Origin: Streptomyces subrutilus
Lineage (GTDB): Bacteria; Actinomycetota; Actinomycetes; Streptomycetales; Streptomycetaceae
Direction of reading: 5' to 3'
Assembly: GCF_008704535.1 (NCBI RefSeq)
Contig: NZ_CP023701.1
Coordinates: 2,108,001-2,172,000, forward strand
Length of the DNA stretch: 64,000 nucleotides
Under the pieces are notes generated by a model. It was not told the origin of the DNA and ran no database searches. It saw only the letters and a program-made list of their open reading frames with translations. The position numbers and the translations under genes were made by a program. Every line of letters starts with the position of its first letter. Within the stretch, counting starts at the first letter, position 1. Shown piece by piece: positions 3,060-12,277 of this stretch.

Positions 3060-3075
3060 TCGAACGTGTGTTTGG
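3060..3075 (+). promoter_or_regulatory. LexA (SOS) box of lexA
   Basis: TCGAACGTGTGTTTGG matches the Gram-positive/actinomycete LexA box (TCGAAC-N4-GTTCGA) with two mismatches in the right arm. It lies 63 bp upstream of the lexA GTG and overlaps the proposed -35 region, so LexA should repress its own gene. Confidence 0.88.
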
Positions 3076-3101
3076 CGCAACCTTTCGAAAGCTACTACCG
3101 T
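3072..3101 (+). promoter_or_regulatory. Candidate lexA promoter
   Basis: TTGGCG (3072-3077), an 18-bp spacer and TACCGT (3096-3101) would start transcription about 30 nt before the lexA start. The -35 hexamer overlaps the SOS box. This is read from position and hexamers only. Confidence 0.45.
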
Positions 3102-3137
3102 TGTCCAGCTAGGGAGAACATTTCGAGAGGGGCCGAC

Positions 3138-3929
3138 GTGACCACCACCGCAGACAGTGCCACCATCACTGCCCAGAACCGCTCCCAGAGCCGACTTGAG
3201 CCGGTGCATGCCATGAACGACGCAAACCTGAACCCGGAGGCGGAGCCCGTACGCCCCGCACGCTCGTTGCCAGGTCGACCTCCAGGCATCCGCGCCGACA
3301 GCTCCGGGCTCACGGACCGGCAGCGGAGGGTCATCGAGGTCATCCGGGATTCGGTGCAGCGGCGCGGCTACCCGCCGTCGATGCGTGAGATCGGCCAGGC
3401 GGTCGGCCTCTCCAGCACCTCGTCCGTGGCCCACCAGCTGATGGCCCTGGAGCGCAAGGGGTTCCTGCGCCGCGACCCGCACCGCCCGCGGGCGTACGAG
3501 GTCCGGGGGTCGGACCAGCCGAGCTCGCAGCCCACGGACACCACGGGCAAGCCCGCCGCGTCGTACGTGCCCCTGGTGGGCCGGATCGCGGCCGGCGGCC
3601 CGATCCTCGCCGAGGAGTCGGTGGAGGACGTGTTCCCGCTCCCCCGCCAGCTGGTCGGCGACGGTGAGCTCTTCGTCCTGAAGGTCGTGGGCGATTCGAT
3701 GATCGAGGCCGCGATCTGTGACGGCGACTGGGTCACCGTGCGCCGCCAGCCGGTCGCGGAGAACGGCGACATCGTCGCCGCGATGCTGGACGGCGAAGCA
3801 ACGGTCAAGCGCTTCAAGCGCGAGGACGGCCACGTCTGGCTGCTGCCGCACAATGCCGCGTACCAGCCCATCCCCGGCGACGAAGCGACCATCCTCGGCA
3901 AGGTCGTCGCCGTACTGCGCCGGATCTGA
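3138..3929 (+). CDS. lexA: SOS repressor LexA
   Basis: Repressor of DNA-damage genes that cleaves itself when RecA filaments form. I chose the GTG at 3138 because GAGAGGGG stands 5 nt before it; starting further upstream would run into the SOS box. The protein is 263 residues. The winged helix-turn-helix is at about 57-120 ([16 protein letters not shown]...[10 protein letters not shown]). The Ala152-Gly153 cleavage bond sits in RIAAGGPI, and the S24 peptidase Ser187 (GDSM) and Lys224 (TVKRF) are present. The roughly 45-residue N-terminal tail is usual for Streptomyces LexA. It diverges from nrdR across a 469-bp region that holds both sets of operators. Confidence 0.97.
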
Positions 3930-3946
3930 GTCCGTCGCCACCGTCC

Positions 3947-3984
3947 AGCCCCGGGATCCACTGCGCCGGTCCCGGGGCTGTTTT
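3947..3984 (+). terminator. Intrinsic terminator after lexA
   Basis: AGCCCCGGGA and TCCCGGGGCT form a perfect 10-bp stem with a 13-nt loop, followed by GTTTT. It lies 17 bp after the lexA stop and just before the convergent dinG end, so it may serve both genes. Confidence 0.88.
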
Positions 3985-4006
3985 GTGTCCGCTGCCGCTC
4001 TCGGAG

Positions 4007-5977
4007 CTACGCGCCGTCCGCCTTCGCGGTCGCGTCGATGGCCGCCAGGGAGCGGCGGGCCTGGTTGCGGTCGGTGGTGTACCAGAAGTCCGGCAGGGTG
4101 GCCTTCAGGAAGCTGCCGTACCGGGCCGTGGCGAGCCGGGGGTCCAGGACGGCGACGACACCGCGGTCGCCCGTGGCCCGTACGAGGCGGCCCGCGCCCT
4201 GGGCCATGAGCAGGGCGGCGTGGGTCGCGGCGACGGCCATGAAGCCGTTCCCGCCGTGCTCCTCGACCGACTTCTGCCGGGCGCTCATCAGCGGATCGTC
4301 GGGACGGGGGAACGGGATGCGGTCCATGACCACGAGCTGGCAGCTGGGCCCGGGCACGTCCACGCCCTGCCACAGGGAGAGCGTGCCGAACAGGCAGGTC
4401 GCGGGGTCGGCGGCGAACATCTTGATCAGCTCACCGAGGGTCTCCTCGCCCTGGAGGAGAATGGGGTTCTCGATCCGGCCGCGCAGTTCCTCGGCCGCCG
4501 CCTTGGCTCCGCGCATGGACGAGAACAGTCCGAGGGTGCGTCCGCCGGCGGCTTCGATCAGCTCCGCCAGCTCGTCCATCATGTCGCCCCGGGTGCCCTC
4601 GCGCCCCGGCGTGGCCAGGTGCTTGGCGACGTAGAGGATGCCCTGTTTGGGGTAGTCGAAGGGCGAGCCGACGTCCAGGCCCTTCCAGAGCGGTACGTCC
4701 TCCCCTTCGACGCCCTCCGCGGAGAGCCCGAGGGAGGCGGCGACGCCGTTGAAGTCGCCGCCGAGCTTCAGGGTGGCGGAGGTCAGGACCACGGAACGGT
4801 CCTCGAACAGCTTCTCCCGCAGCAGGCCGGACACCGACAGCGGGGCGACCCGCAGGGTGGCGCCGAAGCGGTCGTGGCGTTCGTACCAGACGACGTCGTA
4901 CTCGGAGCCGTTGGTGATCCGCTCGGCCACGCCGTGGACGCTCTCCACCGCGGCCAGGGCCTGCTTGCGGACCGCGTCCTCGTCCTGGACGGACTTGTCG
5001 CGGGTGGCACCGATCGCCGAGATCACGTTCCGCGCGGCGTCGCGCAGGGCCATGAGCGCGTACCCGAGGTCTTCGGGGACCTCTTCCAGCCGGCCGGGGA
5101 GGGCAAGCTCCATGACCCGCTCGAAGGACTCGGAGGCGGTCTGCAGGGAGTCGGCGGTCTTCTCGTCGACCAGCTTGGCGGCCCGCTTGACGGCCCGGTT
5201 GACCTGGCCCGGGGTCAGCTCGCCGGTGGCGACGCCGGTCACCCGGGAGACGAGCTCGTGGGCCTCGTCCACGATCAGCACCTCGTGCTGCGGCAGGACC
5301 GGGGCACCCTCGATGGCGTCGATGGCGAGCAGCGCATGGTTGGTGACGACCACGTCGGCGAGCTTGGCGCGCTCCCGGGCCGCTTCGGCGAAGCACTCGG
5401 CGCCGTAGGCGCACTTCGACGCGCCGAGGCATTCGCGGGAGGAGACGGAGATCTGCGACCAGGCCTTGTCCGAGACGCCGGGGGTCAGGTCGTCGCGATC
5501 GCCGGTCTCGGTCTCGTCGGCCCAGTCCCGCAGGCGCAGGAGGTCCTTGCCGAGCTTGCTGGTGGGGGTGGCTGCCTCGAACTGGTCGAAGAGGCCCTCC
5601 TCCTCGTCCTGCGGGGCCCCTTCGTGGAGGCGGTGCAGGCAGAGGTAGTTGGACCGGCCTTTGAGCATGGCGAACTGCGGGCGGCGGCGCAGCTGCGGGT
5701 GCAGCGCCTCCACCGTCCGGGGCAGGTCGCGCTCGACGAGCTGCCGCTGGAGGGCGAGGGTGGCCGTGGCCACCACCACCCGCTCACCGTGGGCGAGGGC
5801 GGGCACCAGGTAGCCCAGGGACTTTCCGGTGCCGGTGCCGGCCTGGATCAGCCGGTGGGAGTTGTCGTCGATCGCTTCGGCGACGGCTTCGGCCATGGCC
5901 ACCTGGCCGGGGCGCTCCGTGCCGCCGACGGCGGAGACGGCGGCGTGCAGCAGGTCGGGGAGGGAGGGCTTCGTCAT
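4007..5977 (-). CDS. dinG: DinG/XPD-family ATP-dependent DNA helicase
   Basis: Superfamily 2 helicase of the iron-sulphur XPD/DinG group, acting in DNA repair or replication-conflict resolution. The 656 residues start at an ATG (5975-5977) reading MTKPSLPDLL. Walker A GTGTGKS is at residues 47-53. Four cysteines that could hold a 4Fe-4S cluster follow (NYLCLH, then RECLGASKCAYGAEC). The DEAH box is in IVDEAHEL, and C-terminal motif VI is near GAGRLVRATGDRG. The frame stays open upstream to 6286, but that extension is Pro/Ala-rich and contains the RecA-NDp-like promoter, so I excluded it. It faces lexA tail to tail. Confidence 0.93.
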   Translation of the reverse strand: MTKPSLPDLLHAAVSAVGGTERPGQVAMAEAVAEAIDDNSHRLIQAGTGTGKSLGYLVPALAHGERVVVATATLALQRQLVERDLPRTVEALHPQLRRRPQFAMLKGRSNYLCLHRLHEGAPQDEEEGLFDQFEAATPTSKLGKDLLRLRDWADETETGDRDDLTPGVSDKAWSQISVSSRECLGASKCAYGAECFAEAARERAKLADVVVTNHALLAIDAIEGAPVLPQHEVLIVDEAHELVSRVTGVATGELTPGQVNRAVKRAAKLVDEKTADSLQTASESFERVMELALPGRLEEVPEDLGYALMALRDAARNVISAIGATRDKSVQDEDAVRKQALAAVESVHGVAERITNGSEYDVVWYERHDRFGATLRVAPLSVSGLLREKLFEDRSVVLTSATLKLGGDFNGVAASLGLSAEGVEGEDVPLWKGLDVGSPFDYPKQGILYVAKHLATPGREGTRGDMMDELAELIEAAGGRTLGLFSSMRGAKAAAEELRGRIENPILLQGEETLGELIKMFAADPATCLFGTLSLWQGVDVPGPSCQLVVMDRIPFPRPDDPLMSARQKSVEEHGGNGFMAVAATHAALLMAQGAGRLVRATGDRGVVAVLDPRLATARYGSFLKATLPDFWYTTDRNQARRSLAAIDATAKADGA

Positions 5978-5987
5978 AGCACCGCCA

Positions 5988-6010
5988 ACCCTACGGGGCG
6001 CCACCGACAG
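5988..6010 (-). promoter_or_regulatory. RecA-NDp (PafBC-type) promoter element of dinG
   Basis: Read on the minus strand: CTGTCGGTG, 8 nt, TAGGGT. The published actinomycete RecA-NDp pattern is TTGTCRGTG-N8-TAnnnT, so only the first base differs. The -10 ends 10 nt before the dinG ATG, giving a leader of only a few nucleotides. Confidence 0.7.
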
Positions 6011-6323
6011 CGGCGGCACCGAATGGGCATTCCCGGACGGTGCGCCGGGTGGAGCGCCACGCCGGGGCGCAGCGTGGCCGGGGCCGGCGGGAGCGGGCGC
6101 GGCGGTCCGCGCCCGGGTCCGGGCGCCGCTCTCGTGCCGGGGGAAGCGGGCCTGGGAGCGCCGGATCTCCGCCCGTACGGGGAACCGGAGCATGGCTCCG
6201 GGGGCGGGGCCGTGGGGATCGGGAGGGAATCTCTCGAAGATCGGGAACTTTGCTGCGTGGCGCAGAGTTTTCGGAGGGAGAAGCATGACCGGCGTCGATG
6301 GCCGGGGCGTGCGGGGGCGGCAG
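6011..6323. other. Intergenic region between the siderophore locus and dinG
   Basis: This stretch has no gene I can support. It has one well-formed Shine-Dalgarno (ggagggag) before an ATG on the plus strand near 6285, but the 48-codon frame that follows runs antisense into the acetyltransferase gene and has no recognisable content. A short CTGCG-TGG-CGCAG hairpin near 6255-6270 could end the minus-strand siderophore transcript. Confidence 0.4.
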
Positions 6324-7016
6324 TCAGAGGAGGTTGCGCAGCGCCCGTTCCCGGATCATCAGCGCGGCTCGCTTGTCGGGAAGGTCGACTTCCGTGGAAC
6401 AGCGGAAGCCGGAGCCCAGGAAGGCTGATACGGAGGGGGTGTTGCGGATGTCCGGTTCGGCGAGGACGCGGGTGCAGCGGGGACGGTTGTCGAAGATCAG
6501 GTCGGCGACGGCGCGCAGCAGGGCGGTGCCCAGCCCTTTGCCCCGGTTCGTGCCGTCTCCGATGAGCAGGTGGATACCGGTGTCGTGGGGGCGTGCGGGG
6601 TAGTACCGCGACAGGGGGTCGAGGTCGGCGCGGTAGATCTCCCAGTAGCTCATCGGTGTGCCGTCGAGCAGGCCGAGGCAGGGGATGACGCTGCCGTCGG
6701 CGTCGAGCCGGGTCCGTAGGTGGGCGGCGGTGACGGCGGTCGGACCGGCCAGCTCCCAGTAGGCGGCCACCGCGGGGTCGTTCATCCAGTGGGCGATCAG
6801 GTCCAGGTGGCGCGCGGGCCGTACGGGTTCGAGGCGGAAGACGCCGGCGGAGGTGGGGGCACTGCCCCAGGTCGCCGGGGAGTCGAGGAGGTCCGCTTCG
6901 GCGAGCAGGGGCAGCATCTCGACGCTGACCCGTGGTTCGCCGATGCGGCCGACGAGGGCGCGACCGGTGCCGTGACGTGTGGTCGGGCCGGTGGTGGGGG
7001 TGCCGGTGGAGGGCAT
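6324..7016 (-). CDS. GNAT N-acyltransferase of siderophore biosynthesis
   Basis: Siderophore acyltransferase of the AlcB/IucB/RhbD type, which acylates an (often hydroxylated) amine using acyl-CoA. The 230 residues show FRLEPVRPARHLDLIAHWMNDP at about 59-80, a hallmark of this subfamily. The acetyl-CoA loop is NRGKGLGTALLRAVADLIF near 166-184, and the C-terminal EPDIRNTPSVSAFLGSGF is also typical. GGAGA lies 9 nt before the ATG. It is the last gene of a minus-strand trio, 30 bp after the IucA/IucC synthetase. The acyl donor and the exact amine cannot be told from sequence. Confidence 0.88.
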   Translation of the reverse strand: MPSTGTPTTGPTTRHGTGRALVGRIGEPRVSVEMLPLLAEADLLDSPATWGSAPTSAGVFRLEPVRPARHLDLIAHWMNDPAVAAYWELAGPTAVTAAHLRTRLDADGSVIPCLGLLDGTPMSYWEIYRADLDPLSRYYPARPHDTGIHLLIGDGTNRGKGLGTALLRAVADLIFDNRPRCTRVLAEPDIRNTPSVSAFLGSGFRCSTEVDLPDKRAALMIRERALRNLL

Positions 7017-7046: not shown

Positions 7047-10000
7047 TCAGGCGTGGAGGGGGTTGGCGATGGTGACGTAGACGGACTGGGTGTCGACGGG
7101 GCCGACGAGCTCGTCGAGGCCGCCGAGGCGGGTGAGCAGGTTCGCTTTGCAGCGGAGGGTGGGTGAGTCGAGCAGGCGCGCGGGGACCGGGCCGAGGTGC
7201 GCGGCCTTGCCCAGGAACCGGCGGAAGGCGGCGAGGAGGACGCGCTCGTCGGCGAGCTGCTGGGATCCGAAGGCTCCGACGAGGCCGAGGACGTTGTTGA
7301 TGCCCAGGTAGTAGGTGAAGCGTTCGTCGGTGACGGCGTCGGACACGAAGGTGTCGCTGGCGCTGCCGATGCCCGGGAGGCGGCGCTCCAGCTCCGCGCG
7401 GTGGGACGCGCGGAAGTAGTAGCCCTGGTTGTCGCGGTAGCGGCCGCCGATCGGCCAGCCGGCTGGGTCGAGGAGGACGAGGGTGTTCTGCTGGTGCGCT
7501 TCGAGGGCGATGCCGGCGAGTGCGTCGAAGGCGAGGACCGGCAGGACCACGTGGTCGAGGTAGCGCAGGAACCACTCGGCGGCGACTGCGGACGTGGTGT
7601 GTCCGGTGGCTTCGGCGAGGCTGCGGATGATCTCGGAGAGCCGGGAGCGCAGGGTGGTCCGGCCCGGCCACGGGCGGGGGGAGGTGAGTGCGGCGACGCA
7701 GACGGCGTCGTCGTCGGAGCGGAAGGGGTTGTGGCGCAGGAGGGCGTCGAGGCCGGGGACGGGGGCGCCGTCCGGGGCGTCGACGGCGACCCAGGCGGGG
7801 TCGCGCACGATGTCGAAGCCGGGGTGGGCGGCCTGCCACTGCTCGGCGAGGCCGGTGCGCAGCAGGCGGTGGACCTCCACCCCGCGGTGGAGTTCCTTGC
7901 GGAGGTTCTCGCGGCGGGAGTTGGTGATGCGCAGACCCAGGGAGAGCTTGAGCATCGCGGGGGCGCCCGGGCGGTGGACGGTGCGGATGGAGGAGGTGGG
8001 GTACCAGGGGTCACCGAAGGGGCCCAGGTCGTGGAGGAGGCCGGAATCGAGCAGGGCTGCGACGGCGGGGCGTTGGAGGAGCTCGCGGGCCTGCCAGGGG
8101 TGGAGGGGCAGGGGGGTGAAGCCGTCGGGAAGGGGGATTCCCGGGGCGAGCCGGCCGAGGAGCCGGGCGGCCGAGACCGGGCGGCCGCGTTCGGTCCAGG
8201 CGGAGTCGGTGGCGAGGGCGGACGGGGCGATCGCGAACCAGTGCAGGGGGAAGGAGCCGTGGAGTTCGGGTGAGTAGCGGCGGACCTCGGCTTCGGAGAG
8301 GCCTTCGCGGCTCTTCGGGTCGGGCTGGAGTGGGTGGCCGAGGAGGAGGGACTGCTCGGCGGTGAGGAACCGGTCGCCTGCGACGGGGTCGGGGGCGGTG
8401 GGACGTTCTCGCCGGTCTGCGATGAACTCGGCGGTACGGCGTACCGAGTCGGCGACCCGGCCGACGAGGTCGGCGCTGCCGCCGCCGGCGGCGGTCGCCC
8501 CCGAGCCCTCGCGGGCGATGAGGGCGGCGACGGTGACGGCGTCCAGGGCAGGGGCGTCGGCGGGGGCGCCTTCGAGCCGGGGAGCTGCGAAGCGGTGCCA
8601 TCCCGAGGGGGACCACAGTTGGACGGCGACGAGCAGAGCGGTGCCGGATGAGAGGAGGGGGATGCGCAGGGGGGTGCCGGTGGGGCCGTCGGGGCGGGGT
8701 ACGCCGGCTTCGCGGACCCAGCAGCGGAGCAGGTTCTCCACGGCCGCAGCTTCGGCGGCGACGGCCGGGTCGGGGTCGTCCAGGGGGTCGGCGTACGAGA
8801 CCCGCTCGGCCTCCGCCAGGACGGTCCGGCCGGGACGTTCTCCGGGCACGGCCTCCTTCTGCCGGGGCACGGCGGCCTGCTGCCCGTAGTCGTCGTCACC
8901 ACCCGAGCCGTAGGGCTGGGCCTGTGAGGTGACCTCGGTTCCGGCGGTCGTCAGGACCGCGCCGTCACCCCCGGCGTCGGCTCGACCGGAGTCGGCCGGC
9001 AGGGCCGCACGGGGGGACCCGGGCGTTGCCTCCGGTGCGGCCTCACCCTCGCCGCCGCCCTCGCCCGCGTGGTGTTCTGGCCGCGGCGCGGGGGTGGCTA
9101 CGCCTCGGTCGTCCGGGGTGTGGTGTGCCGACTGTGTCGGGGTGCGGCCCGGGGGCGTCGCTGTCGTCGGGCTGGAGCGGGGGGTGCCCTCAGGGGCCGG
9201 GCAGGTGGGCGCGTTCGGCGCGGGGGGCGGGGTGGCGTGGGCTGCCGTGCCAACACCCGGGGGGCCGTGGACGGGCCCTGCCGTGCCGGCGCCAGAGTGC
9301 GGGGGCTCCACCGGACGGGGCTGCGGCATGTCCTCAGGGGCCTGACGGATGGCCAGGCCCGGTGACGGCGAGGGCGGAGGGCCTTGGCGTTCGGGTGCGG
9401 TCGGCGCGTCCACGTCCGCACCCGGTGCGTGCCGCGCGGGCTGCGACCGGGCGGGTGGGGATGGCTGGAGGTGGGGCTCCGGGTTCTGCCAGGTGGTGAG
9501 GGCCGGTTCGTTGGGCGGGGGCGGGAGGTCGGGGTGGGAGCGGCGTTCCGATGCCACCCAGGCGAGTCCTGGCTGGGGAGCGGTCGGGGGCAGGCGGTTG
9601 GCGTCCTCCGCCGGTGCGGGCCAGTGCACCGGCGCCACTTCCTCGGGGAACGCGGACACGCGGTACGCGCCCGTGGCGGCTCCGGATTCCGTCAGGGTCC
9701 CGCCCGGTTGCCCGAAGGGCAGTTCGGCCTTCGACGTCGACTCAGGGGCCGGGTGCTGCGGCCTGCCTCCCGGCGGGAACGTCCCCTCAGGGGACTCGGC
9801 CTGGAGCCCGGCCCGGGACGGGCCTTGTGGGCCTGGCGGTTGGGGCACCGCCAGCGGTTCGGACCGGGCCGGAGCGTGGGCGTCAGCCTGCACGGTGGCC
9901 GTACCGTCCCACGACACCGCACGCGGTACGTACGCCCCGGCCGGGGGCGCGGTCCGGTACGGGGTGGCCGATGCCGGTTCGTCCACGGCCAGCGGACGGA

Positions 10001-10661
10001 ACGGCTCCGGTCCCGGGGGGTGGGGCGGGTCCGCGTCCGGCCGCCGGAGCGGCTCGGCGCCCGCCGGTTCTCGTGGCTCGTTGGCAGGCCCCCGGTCCGA
10101 AGGGTCTGTCGCGATCCGGGGGCGGTGTGCCGCGGTGCCTGCGGACCATGTGGGCTCAGCGGTCCCGGGAGGAGGCGGATCCTCATCGACGGGTCGAAAG
10201 CGCCCGGTGGCCGGAGGGCGGCCGAGGTCACCGGCGGGGTTGCGGAACTCCGCGTCCTTGGACCTCGGCAACCCGGTGCCCACCGAACGGGGCTTCTGCG
10301 TGTCCACCCCGGGGCGAGACGATCCGGTGGTCCCGGGGCGCGACGATCCGCTGGCTCCGGGGTGGAACGGTTCCCCGGTCCCTGCGCCGGGCCACGCCGC
10401 GGCGTCAGGGCGAACCGGCTCCCCGGCCTCCGTACGGAGAAGCCTCCCGACCCCCGGGCCGGGCGATGCCGCGGCCCCCGACCAGGGCAGGTGCGCCGCC
10501 CCGGGGTCCACGGGCCCGGCGGTCGCCGCGCCGGGCGAACCCGTGCCCCCGGGGCCGGCCGGGTGCGTGGCCGCCGCCGGGTGGTGGGGGCCCGTCGTCG
10601 CCGGGCCGGGCTGTCCCTGGGGGCCGGGGTGGAGGGGGGTGGGGTGGTGGGGGTCGGGCAT
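7047..10661 (-). CDS. IucA/IucC-family siderophore synthetase with a ~600-residue disordered N-terminal extension
   Basis: NRPS-independent siderophore synthetase, which joins a carboxylate (commonly citrate) to an amine with ATP. The catalytic part is the last ~575 residues, starting near VENLLRCWVREAG (residue 641). It has the conserved HGSFPLHWFAIAP, LKLSLGLRITNSRRENLRKE and LEAHQQNTLVLL blocks. Before it runs about 600 residues rich in Pro, Gly, Ala, Ser and Thr. The ATG at 10661 has GGAGG 8 nt upstream, 20 bp after the aminotransferase stop, and the in-frame third positions remain mostly G/C, so the extension looks translated. An in-frame GTG at 8849 (AAGGAG only 3 nt before) would give a normal 600-residue enzyme and leave 1.8 kb unexplained. 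The domain call is firm; the start is not. Confidence 0.82.
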   Translation of the reverse strand: MPDPHHPTPLHPGPQGQPGPATTGPHHPAAATHPAGPGGTGSPGAATAGPVDPGAAHLPWSGAAASPGPGVGRLLRTEAGEPVRPDAAAWPGAGTGEPFHPGASGSSRPGTTGSSRPGVDTQKPRSVGTGLPRSKDAEFRNPAGDLGRPPATGRFRPVDEDPPPPGTAEPTWSAGTAAHRPRIATDPSDRGPANEPREPAGAEPLRRPDADPPHPPGPEPFRPLAVDEPASATPYRTAPPAGAYVPRAVSWDGTATVQADAHAPARSEPLAVPQPPGPQGPSRAGLQAESPEGTFPPGGRPQHPAPESTSKAELPFGQPGGTLTESGAATGAYRVSAFPEEVAPVHWPAPAEDANRLPPTAPQPGLAWVASERRSHPDLPPPPNEPALTTWQNPEPHLQPSPPARSQPARHAPGADVDAPTAPERQGPPPSPSPGLAIRQAPEDMPQPRPVEPPHSGAGTAGPVHGPPGVGTAAHATPPPAPNAPTCPAPEGTPRSSPTTATPPGRTPTQSAHHTPDDRGVATPAPRPEHHAGEGGGEGEAAPEATPGSPRAALPADSGRADAGGDGAVLTTAGTEVTSQAQPYGSGGDDDYGQQAAVPRQKEAVPGERPGRTVLAEAERVSYADPLDDPDPAVAAEAAAVENLLRCWVREAGVPRPDGPTGTPLRIPLLSSGTALLVAVQLWSPSGWHRFAAPRLEGAPADAPALDAVTVAALIAREGSGATAAGGGSADLVGRVADSVRRTAEFIADRRERPTAPDPVAGDRFLTAEQSLLLGHPLQPDPKSREGLSEAEVRRYSPELHGSFPLHWFAIAPSALATDSAWTERGRPVSAARLLGRLAPGIPLPDGFTPLPLHPWQARELLQRPAVAALLDSGLLHDLGPFGDPWYPTSSIRTVHRPGAPAMLKLSLGLRITNSRRENLRKELHRGVEVHRLLRTGLAEQWQAAHPGFDIVRDPAWVAVDAPDGAPVPGLDALLRHNPFRSDDDAVCVAALTSPRPWPGRTTLRSRLSEIIRSLAEATGHTTSAVAAEWFLRYLDHVVLPVLAFDALAGIALEAHQQNTLVLLDPAGWPIGGRYRDNQGYYFRASHRAELERRLPGIGSASDTFVSDAVTDERFTYYLGINNVLGLVGAFGSQQLADERVLLAAFRRFLGKAAHLGPVPARLLDSPTLRCKANLLTRLGGLDELVGPVDTQSVYVTIANPLHA
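10307..10355. repeat. Tandem ~24-bp repeat in the synthetase extension
   Basis: Two near-identical adjacent units (10307-10331 and 10331-10355) share ccccggggcg.gacgatccg.tgg. On the minus strand they encode GSSRPG units, within a wider low-complexity tract. This suggests the extension grew partly by repeat slippage. Confidence 0.6.
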
Positions 10662-10681
10662 CGCGGGTCCTCCGGGTGCGG

Positions 10682-12277
10682 TCAGCGGGGCCGGCGGGCG
10701 GCGGCGGCCGGGATGGCGTCGGCCAGGCGGTCGAGGACCGCCGAGGCCTGTTCGTCGGTCAGGGTCAGCGGGGGGAGGAGGCGTACGACGGCGGAGTGGC
10801 GGCCGCCGAGTTCGACGATCAGGCCCCGGTCCAGGCACTCCTCGCGGACGGCCGCCGCGAGGGCGGGTGCGGCGGCGCCCGTCTCGGGGTCGGCCAGTTC
10901 GACGCCGATCATCAAGCCCCGGCCGCGGACCTCCGCGATGCAGGGCTGGTCCGCGGCCAGTCCGCGCAGGGCGGTCGTCATGCGGTCCCCGAGCAGGGCG
11001 GCGCGTTCGGCGAGCCGGTTCTCGCGGACGTAGGCGAGGGTGGCGGCGCCGGCGGCCATGGCCAGCTGGTTGCCCCGGAAGGTCCCGGCGTGGGCGCCGG
11101 GGGCCCAGACGTCGAGTTCGGCCCGGTAGACGATGACGGCCAGCGGGAGACTGCCGCCGATGGCCTTGGAGAGGACCATCACGTCGGGCACGACCCCGGC
11201 GTGGTCCACCCCCCAGAAGGCTCCGGTCCGGCCGACGCCCGTCTGCACCTCGTCGGCGATCAGGGCGATGCCGCGGGCCGCCGTGATCTCCCGCATCCGG
11301 CGCAGCCAGGCGTCCGGGGCGGGGAGCACCCCGCCCTCGCCCTGCGTCGGCTCGACGATCATGGCCGCGGGGGCGGGCACTCCGCTCTTGGGGTCGTCCA
11401 GGAGGCTTTCCGTCCAGCGGGCGCCGAGTTCGGCGCCTTCCGGGCCGCCGACGCCGAACGGGCAGCGGAGGTCCTGCGGATACGGCAGCCGGGTCACGCG
11501 GACGTCCGGAGCGCCGCCCGAGGCGCCCAGGGCCCCGGCGGTCATGCCGTGGTAGGCCCCCGTGAAGGCGAGCAGGCCGCGGCGGCCGGTCGCGGTGCGG
11601 ACCAGTGTGAGGGCGGCCTCGACGGCGTCCGTGCCGGCGGGACCGCAGAACTGGACGCGGGCGTCGGCGGCCAGCGCGGGCGGCAGGTTCGCGAACAGCT
11701 CGGTGGTGAAGGCGTCCTTGACCGGGGTCGCGAGGTCGAGGACGTGGAGCGGAGCACCGGAGTCCAGGACGCCGCGGATCGCTTCGAGGACCACGGGGTG
11801 GTTGTGGCCCAGGGCCAGGGTGCCGGCGCCGGAGAGGCAGTCGAGGTAGCGTCGGCCGTCGGCGCCCTCGATGGTCAGGCCGCGGGCCCGCACCGGGACG
11901 ACGGGCAGGGAGCGGGCGTACGTCCGGGCGGCGGACTCCCGTTGCGCCTGCCGGCGCAGGATCCCTTCCGTCCCGCACCCGGCGCCGGCCACGGCCCCGA
12001 AACCCGACCCGGACCCACCGGGGCCGGACCCGGCTCCGGCAGACCCGGCTCCGGCCGGCCCCGCTGCGACAGACCCGCCGCCGGCGCCGCCCGGGTCCGC
12101 GCGCGGGTCCGCGCCCATGCCCGGGGCCGCGCCCGTCCGGGTCCCCGTGCGCGTCCCCGTACGGACGCCCATAAGCGCACCCGCACCCGCACCCGTACCG
12201 GGCGCCCCTCCCTGCGGTGGCACCTGCGGCGGGAGTTGGGCGGCGGCCGCGGCCGCCGCCGGCTCGGTCAAAGCCAC
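10682..12277 (-). CDS. Class III aminotransferase (diaminobutyrate--2-oxoglutarate type)
   Basis: PLP-dependent aminotransferase of the diaminobutyrate/ornithine group; in rhizobactin-type pathways RhbA makes 2,4-diaminobutyrate for the siderophore backbone. Of 531 residues, the enzyme proper begins at about 105 (ILRRQAQRESAARTYARSLP). The PLP-phosphate region (LSGAGTLALGHNHP), LIADEVQTGVGRTG and the Schiff-base lysine in LSKAIGGSLPL are all present. The first ~100 residues are a Gly/Ala/Thr low-complexity extension with GTRTGTRTG repeats. The GTG start at 12277 has GGGAGGA about 9 nt upstream. It is the first gene of the siderophore trio. No iron-box palindrome of the TTAGGTTAGG type is visible in the 241 bp before it. 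Confidence 0.88.
   Translation of the reverse strand: MALTEPAAAAAAAQLPPQVPPQGGAPGTGAGAGALMGVRTGTRTGTRTGAAPGMGADPRADPGGAGGGSVAAGPAGAGSAGAGSGPGGSGSGFGAVAGAGCGTEGILRRQAQRESAARTYARSLPVVPVRARGLTIEGADGRRYLDCLSGAGTLALGHNHPVVLEAIRGVLDSGAPLHVLDLATPVKDAFTTELFANLPPALAADARVQFCGPAGTDAVEAALTLVRTATGRRGLLAFTGAYHGMTAGALGASGGAPDVRVTRLPYPQDLRCPFGVGGPEGAELGARWTESLLDDPKSGVPAPAAMIVEPTQGEGGVLPAPDAWLRRMREITAARGIALIADEVQTGVGRTGAFWGVDHAGVVPDVMVLSKAIGGSLPLAVIVYRAELDVWAPGAHAGTFRGNQLAMAAGAATLAYVRENRLAERAALLGDRMTTALRGLAADQPCIAEVRGRGLMIGVELADPETGAAAPALAAAVREECLDRGLIVELGGRHSAVVRLLPPLTLTDEQASAVLDRLADAIPAAAARRPR

Follow-up and report, generated by a model that had tools for sequence, protein, structure and literature searches.

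A hypervariable N-terminal overhang and a conserved VPRQ motif in the siderophore synthetase CsbB of Streptomyces subrutilus

The csbB locus

The window analyzed here, a stretch of 64,000 nucleotides from the single-contig 7.6 Mb genome of Streptomyces subrutilus (NZ_CP023701.1, positions 2,108,001 to 2,172,000), contains csbB, which encodes a siderophore synthetase of the type independent of nonribosomal peptide synthetases (NRPS), hereafter NRPS-independent siderophore (NIS) synthetase, with a long disordered N-terminal arm (Table 1). The original prediction, made from this DNA by itself, described a long open frame with an extension of about 600 residues on an IucA/IucC synthetase, and both are found: the frame is open for 1,204 codons from ATG 10661 to the stop at 7047 on the minus strand, and columns conserved among relatives start at about residue 625, save for the P-R-Q of a short motif. 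The well-placed ribosome site it reported is present too, GGAGG (10673-10669) lying seven bases before the ATG, which is 20 bases past the csbA stop.

The genes csbA, csbB and csbC stand in the same order as in Table 1 of PMC9600172. Further downstream lie a DinG-like frame (from 4007, minus strand) and a LexA-like frame (3066-3929, plus strand), both named by recognition rather than by profile search; dinG followed by lexA occupies the same place in the published cluster. Because of this matching order, csbB belongs to the cryptic csb siderophore cluster reported there. According to the portions of PMC9600172 at hand, the cluster of Streptomyces sp. YIM 121038 encodes CsbA, CsbB, CsbC and CsbD of 545, 818, 258 and 615 amino acids, followed by dinG, lexA and nrdR; no product was found for it, and disruption of csbC failed in one strain. 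Gene order and gene families are alike in the two clusters, but CsbB has 1,204 amino acids in the window against 818, and csbD is gone. Since CsbB is listed at 818 amino acids, it probably bears a long arm in YIM 121038 as well, and we found no discussion of a CsbB arm or motif in those portions of the paper.

The csb cluster is common in the genus, and a csbB catalytic domain at least 69% identical was present in 23 of the 24 other same-genus genomes searched. We processed 111 loci, window included, and labeled the relatives L002-L111. The best 80 relatives of the catalytic domain from the scan were all Streptomyces records; seven loci (L104 and L106-L111) come from other families, and L105 is a same-genus locus with a split match.

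Table 1 Features of csbB and its neighborhood in the window (positions of the window).
Feature	Position	Strand	Remark
csbB, IucA-type NIS siderophore synthetase with long disordered N-terminal arm	7047..10661	-	1,204 aa
Overhang, residues 1-597	8871..10661	-	Pro 21%, Ala 16%, Gly 13%; hypervariable across species
Ribosome site GGAGG	10669..10673	-	seven bases before ATG 10661
VPRQ motif, residues 598-601	8859..8870	-	within AAVPRQKEAV
Catalytic domain, IucA fold, residues 623-1204	7050..8795	-	boundary by our own cut
GTG, rival start of the original prediction	8847..8849	-	AAGGAGG 2 bases upstream (AGGA 4)
csbA, diaminobutyrate-2-oxoglutarate transaminase	10682..12277	-	103-residue low-complexity N-tail
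csbC, GNAT acyltransferase (Acetyltransf_8)	6324..7016	-	variable N-tail
csbD site (second, IucC-type synthetase in most relatives)	5978..6323	-	csbD absent here

The catalytic domain resembles IucA

Pfam profiles place IucA_IucC (PF04183, 221.6 bits, cut-off 25) at residues 765-993 of CsbB and FhuF (PF06276, 104.9 bits, cut-off 25.2) at residues 1029-1185. The best solved relative by sequence is the aerobactin synthetase IucA (5jm7, E 3.4e-54). When an AlphaFold2 model of residues 584-1204 (mean pLDDT 73) was compared with the PDB, IucA again came first, followed by AcsD, SbnC, IucC, NcdF, AlcC and DesD. The model thus predicts an NIS synthetase fold of the IucA type for the C-terminal part, with TM scores of 0.72/0.80 and 29% identity to IucA (5jm7/5jm8). 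DesD, the desferrioxamine synthetase of Streptomyces (6nl2, 7tgn and others), is of the same fold superfamily at lower similarity (~16-18% identity). Judging from the family, the C-terminal 582 residues would catalyze the condensation of an amine from CsbA and CsbC with a citrate-type carboxylate.

As the original prediction held, solved NIS synthetases lack the extension, their chains having 576-653 residues. The solved chain of IucA (576 residues) matches CsbB from its residue 19 on and, unlike CsbB, has no arm; DesD chains have 568-595 residues and hence no arm either.

The overhang appears to be coding in related loci

Open frames are cheap in GC-rich DNA (73.5% G+C in the window) and shadow frames look alike, so we relied on relatives for the coding status of the arm. 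For the window by itself, the 597 codons that precede the motif are free of stops, where their own composition would predict 6.3. It is the comparative evidence that convinces us that the arm is coding. Of the 111 loci, 80 allowed both a start linked to the csbA stop and the catalytic domain to be placed. In 75 of these 80 the two share a frame, the start being taken as the first start codon past the csbA stop that has a ribosome-site-like tetramer (the first ribosome-site start). Among the long-arm loci (window included, identity at least 78%, arm of at least 100 residues), this holds for 10 of the 11 with a visible csbA stop, and the ten arms whose start is fixed in this way contain no stop in 4,554 codons, where ~34 would be expected from the arms' own position-specific composition. 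All 15 long arms together contain none in 6,861 codons (~52 expected; 25 and 59 in the other two sense frames), although five of them were delimited along the open frame and are open partly by choice (the arm start is unseen in L006, L007, L014 and L083, and part of the L008 arm was used). As the sequences are related, these stop counts are not independent trials.

In all 15 arms, no codon position has a lower G+C than position 2, and in 13 of them position 3 exceeds both others. Where arm DNA could be aligned, the frequency of differences was 0.255/0.223/0.281 at codon positions 1/2/3, and in five pairs, the same for both regions, dN/dS is 0.40-0.66 for the overhang versus 0.08-0.31 for the catalytic domain. 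These values suggest a constraint on the arm that is weak yet present. In nucleotide alignments of the arms, 4,809 of 5,113 aligned bases keep the frame; gap lengths of 0/1/2 modulo three (28/22/20) are uninformative on frame. Residues resembling MPDP recur directly after the upstream ATG in relatives. The arm is thus translated-looking, as the original prediction proposed. In the window clade, csbB starts 9-25 bases past the csbA stop, and since the start codon sits directly after that stop, csbB may be translationally coupled to csbA.

A VPRQ motif precedes the catalytic domain

Most loci of the genus carry, a short way ahead of the catalytic domain, a motif with the consensus T-V-P-R-Q-[K/H]-x-G. 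VPRQ is present in 82 of 101 same-genus arms (0.30 expected after shuffling each arm), and the relaxed pattern [VI]PxQ in 91 (3.8 expected). The residue after VPRQ is K in 41 of the 82 and H in 20. All four codons of V (GTN), P (CCN) and R (CGN) are used within the motif, which shows selection on the peptide rather than on a DNA site. We also considered whether the motif could be a Shine-Dalgarno sequence, as CAG AAG GAC resembles a ribosome site, and rejected this because of the free V, P and R codons and because K follows in only half of the arms.

In the window, the motif lies 42 residues before the conserved LLRCW of the catalytic domain. Over 63 loci, the distance from VPRQ to LLRCW has a median of 41 (range 27-98, standard deviation (sd) 11), whereas the length before VPRQ has a median of 35 and reaches 898 (sd 186; the minimum of 0 probably reflects a miscalled start). 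As the spacing is steady and the front length variable, what varies is the overhang in front of the motif and not a linker joining the motif to the enzyme. These lengths, together with the 818 amino acids given for CsbB in the YIM 121038 table, also qualify an earlier claim: the added region is real and unusual, but it is the long end of a range and not one block peculiar to this gene.

The overhang is variable, disordered and acidic

Taken together, the 15 long arms contain 24% Pro, 20% Ala, 10.5% Gly and 9% Ser, with 3.8% Arg and 0.2% Lys; Pro ranges over 20-28% and Ala over 16-24%. Disorder-promoting residues make up 83-93%, and all 15 arms are net negative. The original prediction offered a membrane tag as one role, which we rejected because the most hydrophobic 19-residue stretch of the arm averages only 0.32 on the Kyte-Doolittle scale. 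A search of the window's own genome found no match to the arm except itself, at E up to 10, and so gave no sign of an origin by copying within the genome.

Similar extensions, from a few dozen to ~900 residues, were found in orthologues. The arm before the core measures 622 residues in the window and 181, 188, 227, 319, 381, 391, 781, 784 and 913 residues in near relatives; arms of 164-244 residues occur in other lineages (L025, L027, L086 and L095). L002 and L003, with arms of 52 and 50 residues, nest among long-armed relatives on the tree (support 88-91, under the 95 mark), so that contraction probably occurs too. A label test on the tree showed no clustering of long arms (93 of 500 shuffles as low), and we did not use this result because it took in only two long-arm groups, left out 57 rows and had labels resting in part on doubtful open-frame lengths (e.g. 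L060, L048, L072 and L079).

Tandem arrays are visible in some members, with units of 48, 90, 144 and 192 bases plus a 21-base array in L051 and units of 30/60 bases in L007. These main units are multiples of three. The L008 arm (region 3535-5000) holds short arrays of 20, 21 and 23 bases, and the window's own arm holds only short faint repeats. The overhang has probably grown to hundreds of residues in the window clade, visibly by in-frame tandem duplication in some members. In the same five pairs, synonymous divergence is 0.41-0.98 in the arm versus 0.12-0.23 in the catalytic domain, which fits repeat turnover or the alignment of non-corresponding repeats.

We argue that the bulk of the arm has no length- or sequence-specific job, because its sequence is weakly constrained and short arms occur in L002 and L003 among long-armed kin. 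The overhang would then be mainly a tolerated, disordered passenger, and TVPRQ, a motif that the original prediction does not mention, the better candidate for recruitment.

CsbC carries a second motif on a variable tail

The CsbA N-tail is rich in Gly and Ala, and in relatives its length is ~9 to 127 residues according to which start is assumed, with 15 a common value. For CsbC, the authors of PMC9600172 note an extended N-terminus of ~80 residues with a polyproline signature in YIM 121038. We find that CsbC, in parallel to CsbB, also bears a conserved motif on its variable tail: [ED]DT[LVI][DE][LM], the first part of a fuller, EDTLDLRLPDELLALF-like motif, is present in 68 of 102 CsbC tails (0.07 expected in shuffles). 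In the window clade, most CsbC tails lost this acidic half and keep the second half, an RL..LLPLL-like core. In a model of the L021 CsbC, the motif is a short isolated helix of low confidence ahead of a well-predicted GNAT core. A conserved short motif in a disordered terminus is a feature of docking systems of the short-linear-motif type, and is found in both CsbB and the L021 CsbC.

A proposed docking motif behind a probably tolerated overhang

We favor, with moderate confidence, the reading that csbB encodes one polypeptide from ATG 10661, in which an enzyme is joined to a docking motif and a tolerated in-frame overhang. The motif, for which a docking peptide is the most likely role, would dock onto another protein, with CsbA or CsbC as first candidates. 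Insertions between the start and the motif would have to be read through in frame to reach the enzyme, and a disordered, soluble and acidic filler may harm little. Such required read-through and tolerance would leave an overhang that is coding yet nearly unconstrained, largely free in length and sequence, and selection would hold the motif. That the Csb enzymes dock to each other via their tail motifs seems the most economical functional guess. A docked Csb assembly through TVPRQ on CsbB and EDTLDLRLPDELLALF on CsbC, with the hypervariable disordered overhangs free since only the motifs matter, is a tentative extension that we regard as possible but doubtful.

Short conserved docking peptides on disordered termini of pathway enzymes are a feature of NRPS and polyketide synthase lines, and the CsbB motif is likewise a short conserved peptide on such a terminus. 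The two cases differ in their enzymes. If the motifs do dock enzymes, NRPS-independent siderophore pathways would have a channeling device comparable to assembly-line docking peptides, and the docked assembly would amount to a docking code. The conserved motifs are the more interesting lead. The overhang in turn gives nature's own length series for a single enzyme, its arms spanning a few tens to ~900 residues, in which the cost and role of disordered tails could be studied. For annotators it is a warning that domain length is no guide to where csbB starts. Our literature searches, judged from titles and abstract openings, found no publication on disordered arms of NIS synthetases.

Several observations weigh against our reading. 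The csbB frame is open upstream to 13745, right across csbA, which makes openness alone a weak argument. The third-position G+C described as coding-like by the original prediction has the right order in the arm (0.80/0.71/0.84 at positions 1/2/3) and falls short in strength, being much weaker than in the remainder of csbB (0.77/0.54/0.92). The frame rule is broken in L008, L048, L072, L079 and L102; in the long-armed L008, start and catalytic domain are in different frames, so that at least one assembly has a broken or misassembled arm. The link between start and csbA stop does not hold across the whole genus either, as 100-355 bases lie between that stop and the first ribosome-site start in several loci with short arms. 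Composition was rejected as coding proof, because the shadow frames of ordinary genes also give open stretches rich in P/A/S/T. When 1,085,800 bases from 110 sources were scanned for open stretches of at least 150 residues, rich in P/A/S/T and poor in hydrophobics and Arg, 9 were labeled as csbB overhang and 179 lay elsewhere; of these 179, many are shadow frames of the catalytic domain by coordinates and some are mislabeled csbB arms (e.g. L004, L005, L010, L011, L014, L051 and the first part of the window arm). One can argue that shadow frames should be G+C-rich at position 2, where the overhang is lowest or tied. Two L051 arrays have a 23-base unit (65 and 58% matches), which is not a multiple of three. 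As for the motif, [VI]PxQ is missing in 10 of the 101 same-genus loci, and the motif was not found in the seven other-family loci or in L105, which is not counted among the 101. It appears free in the AlphaFold2 model, where its segment has a pLDDT of ~30 and is not docked on its own domain, although in a model from 63 similar sequences a low pLDDT argues for this only weakly. Docking itself is something we infer.

Among the alternatives, the motif could bind something outside the pathway, such as a protease adaptor, chaperone or regulator, instead of CsbA or CsbC. It lies in a segment predicted to be disordered and no result ties it to a partner, and we give this possibility a modest chance. 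The overhang itself might instead be a scaffold, an entropic bristle or a condensate-forming tail that gathers CsbA, CsbB and CsbC, as the original prediction had suggested in part. The alike composition of the 15 long arms and the variable N-tails of CsbA and CsbC would suit such a role, but the free length before the motif, the probable contraction to ~50 residues in L002 and L003 and the weak sequence constraint speak against it. Nor do loci with longer CsbC tails have longer CsbB arms (Spearman -0.32, n=75, kinship uncorrected), and we consider a scaffold unlikely.

Translation could also begin inside, at GTG 8849 or a nearby codon, leaving the arm as an untranslated leader. AAGGAGG stands just upstream of this GTG, some other Streptomyces seem to begin CsbB well past the csbA stop, and L011, L016 and L017 have internal ribosome-site starts, which lie elsewhere in the arm. 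The 2-base spacing is against such a start, as is the absence of any ribosome-site start from the last 150 arm codons in 11 of the 15 long-arm loci; the GTG has no counterpart at its place in the other 14, a start there would remove the conserved motif, and the MPDP-like residues recur right behind the upstream ATG. We regard internal initiation as quite improbable. Still far less credible is an assembly or sequencing artefact, for which one could cite the GC-rich region, repeat-bearing in relatives, and the out-of-frame L008 arm with its arrays; the window's genome is a single contig, its own copy has few repeats, and the architecture is alike in relatives from different assemblies. Overall, what the original prediction observed is confirmed, and its interpretation is partly supported.

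Variation at csbD and a palindrome before dinG

In the window, 346 bases separate csbC from the dinG start, with no csbD between them. A genome-wide search with the L003 CsbD as query did not find CsbD, the best match (19.1 bits) being to another synthetase. Among L002-L081, dinG was found in 77 loci; judged by the size of the gap, 14 of these lack csbD and one, L014, has it shortened (internally, 5068-6011). Presence was confirmed by translation in L003 and L011 only, and so was the shortening in L014. Given these absences and the shortened copy, the csb cluster is variable at csbD. The window's closest neighbors on the tree, L004, L005, L007 and L010, all differ from it in having a csbD-sized gap. 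In L008, csbD is gone and the csbB start is out of frame, possibly through cluster decay or sequencing error.

Between csbC and dinG lies a 24-base imperfect palindrome, AACTCTGCGCCACGCAGCAAAGTT (window 6246-6269, minus strand). A nearly identical palindrome is present in three of the eight loci inspected (L003, L008 and L014), and the pattern matched 10 of 81 loci. It is kept despite the loss of csbD in the window and in L008, and it may be an operator.

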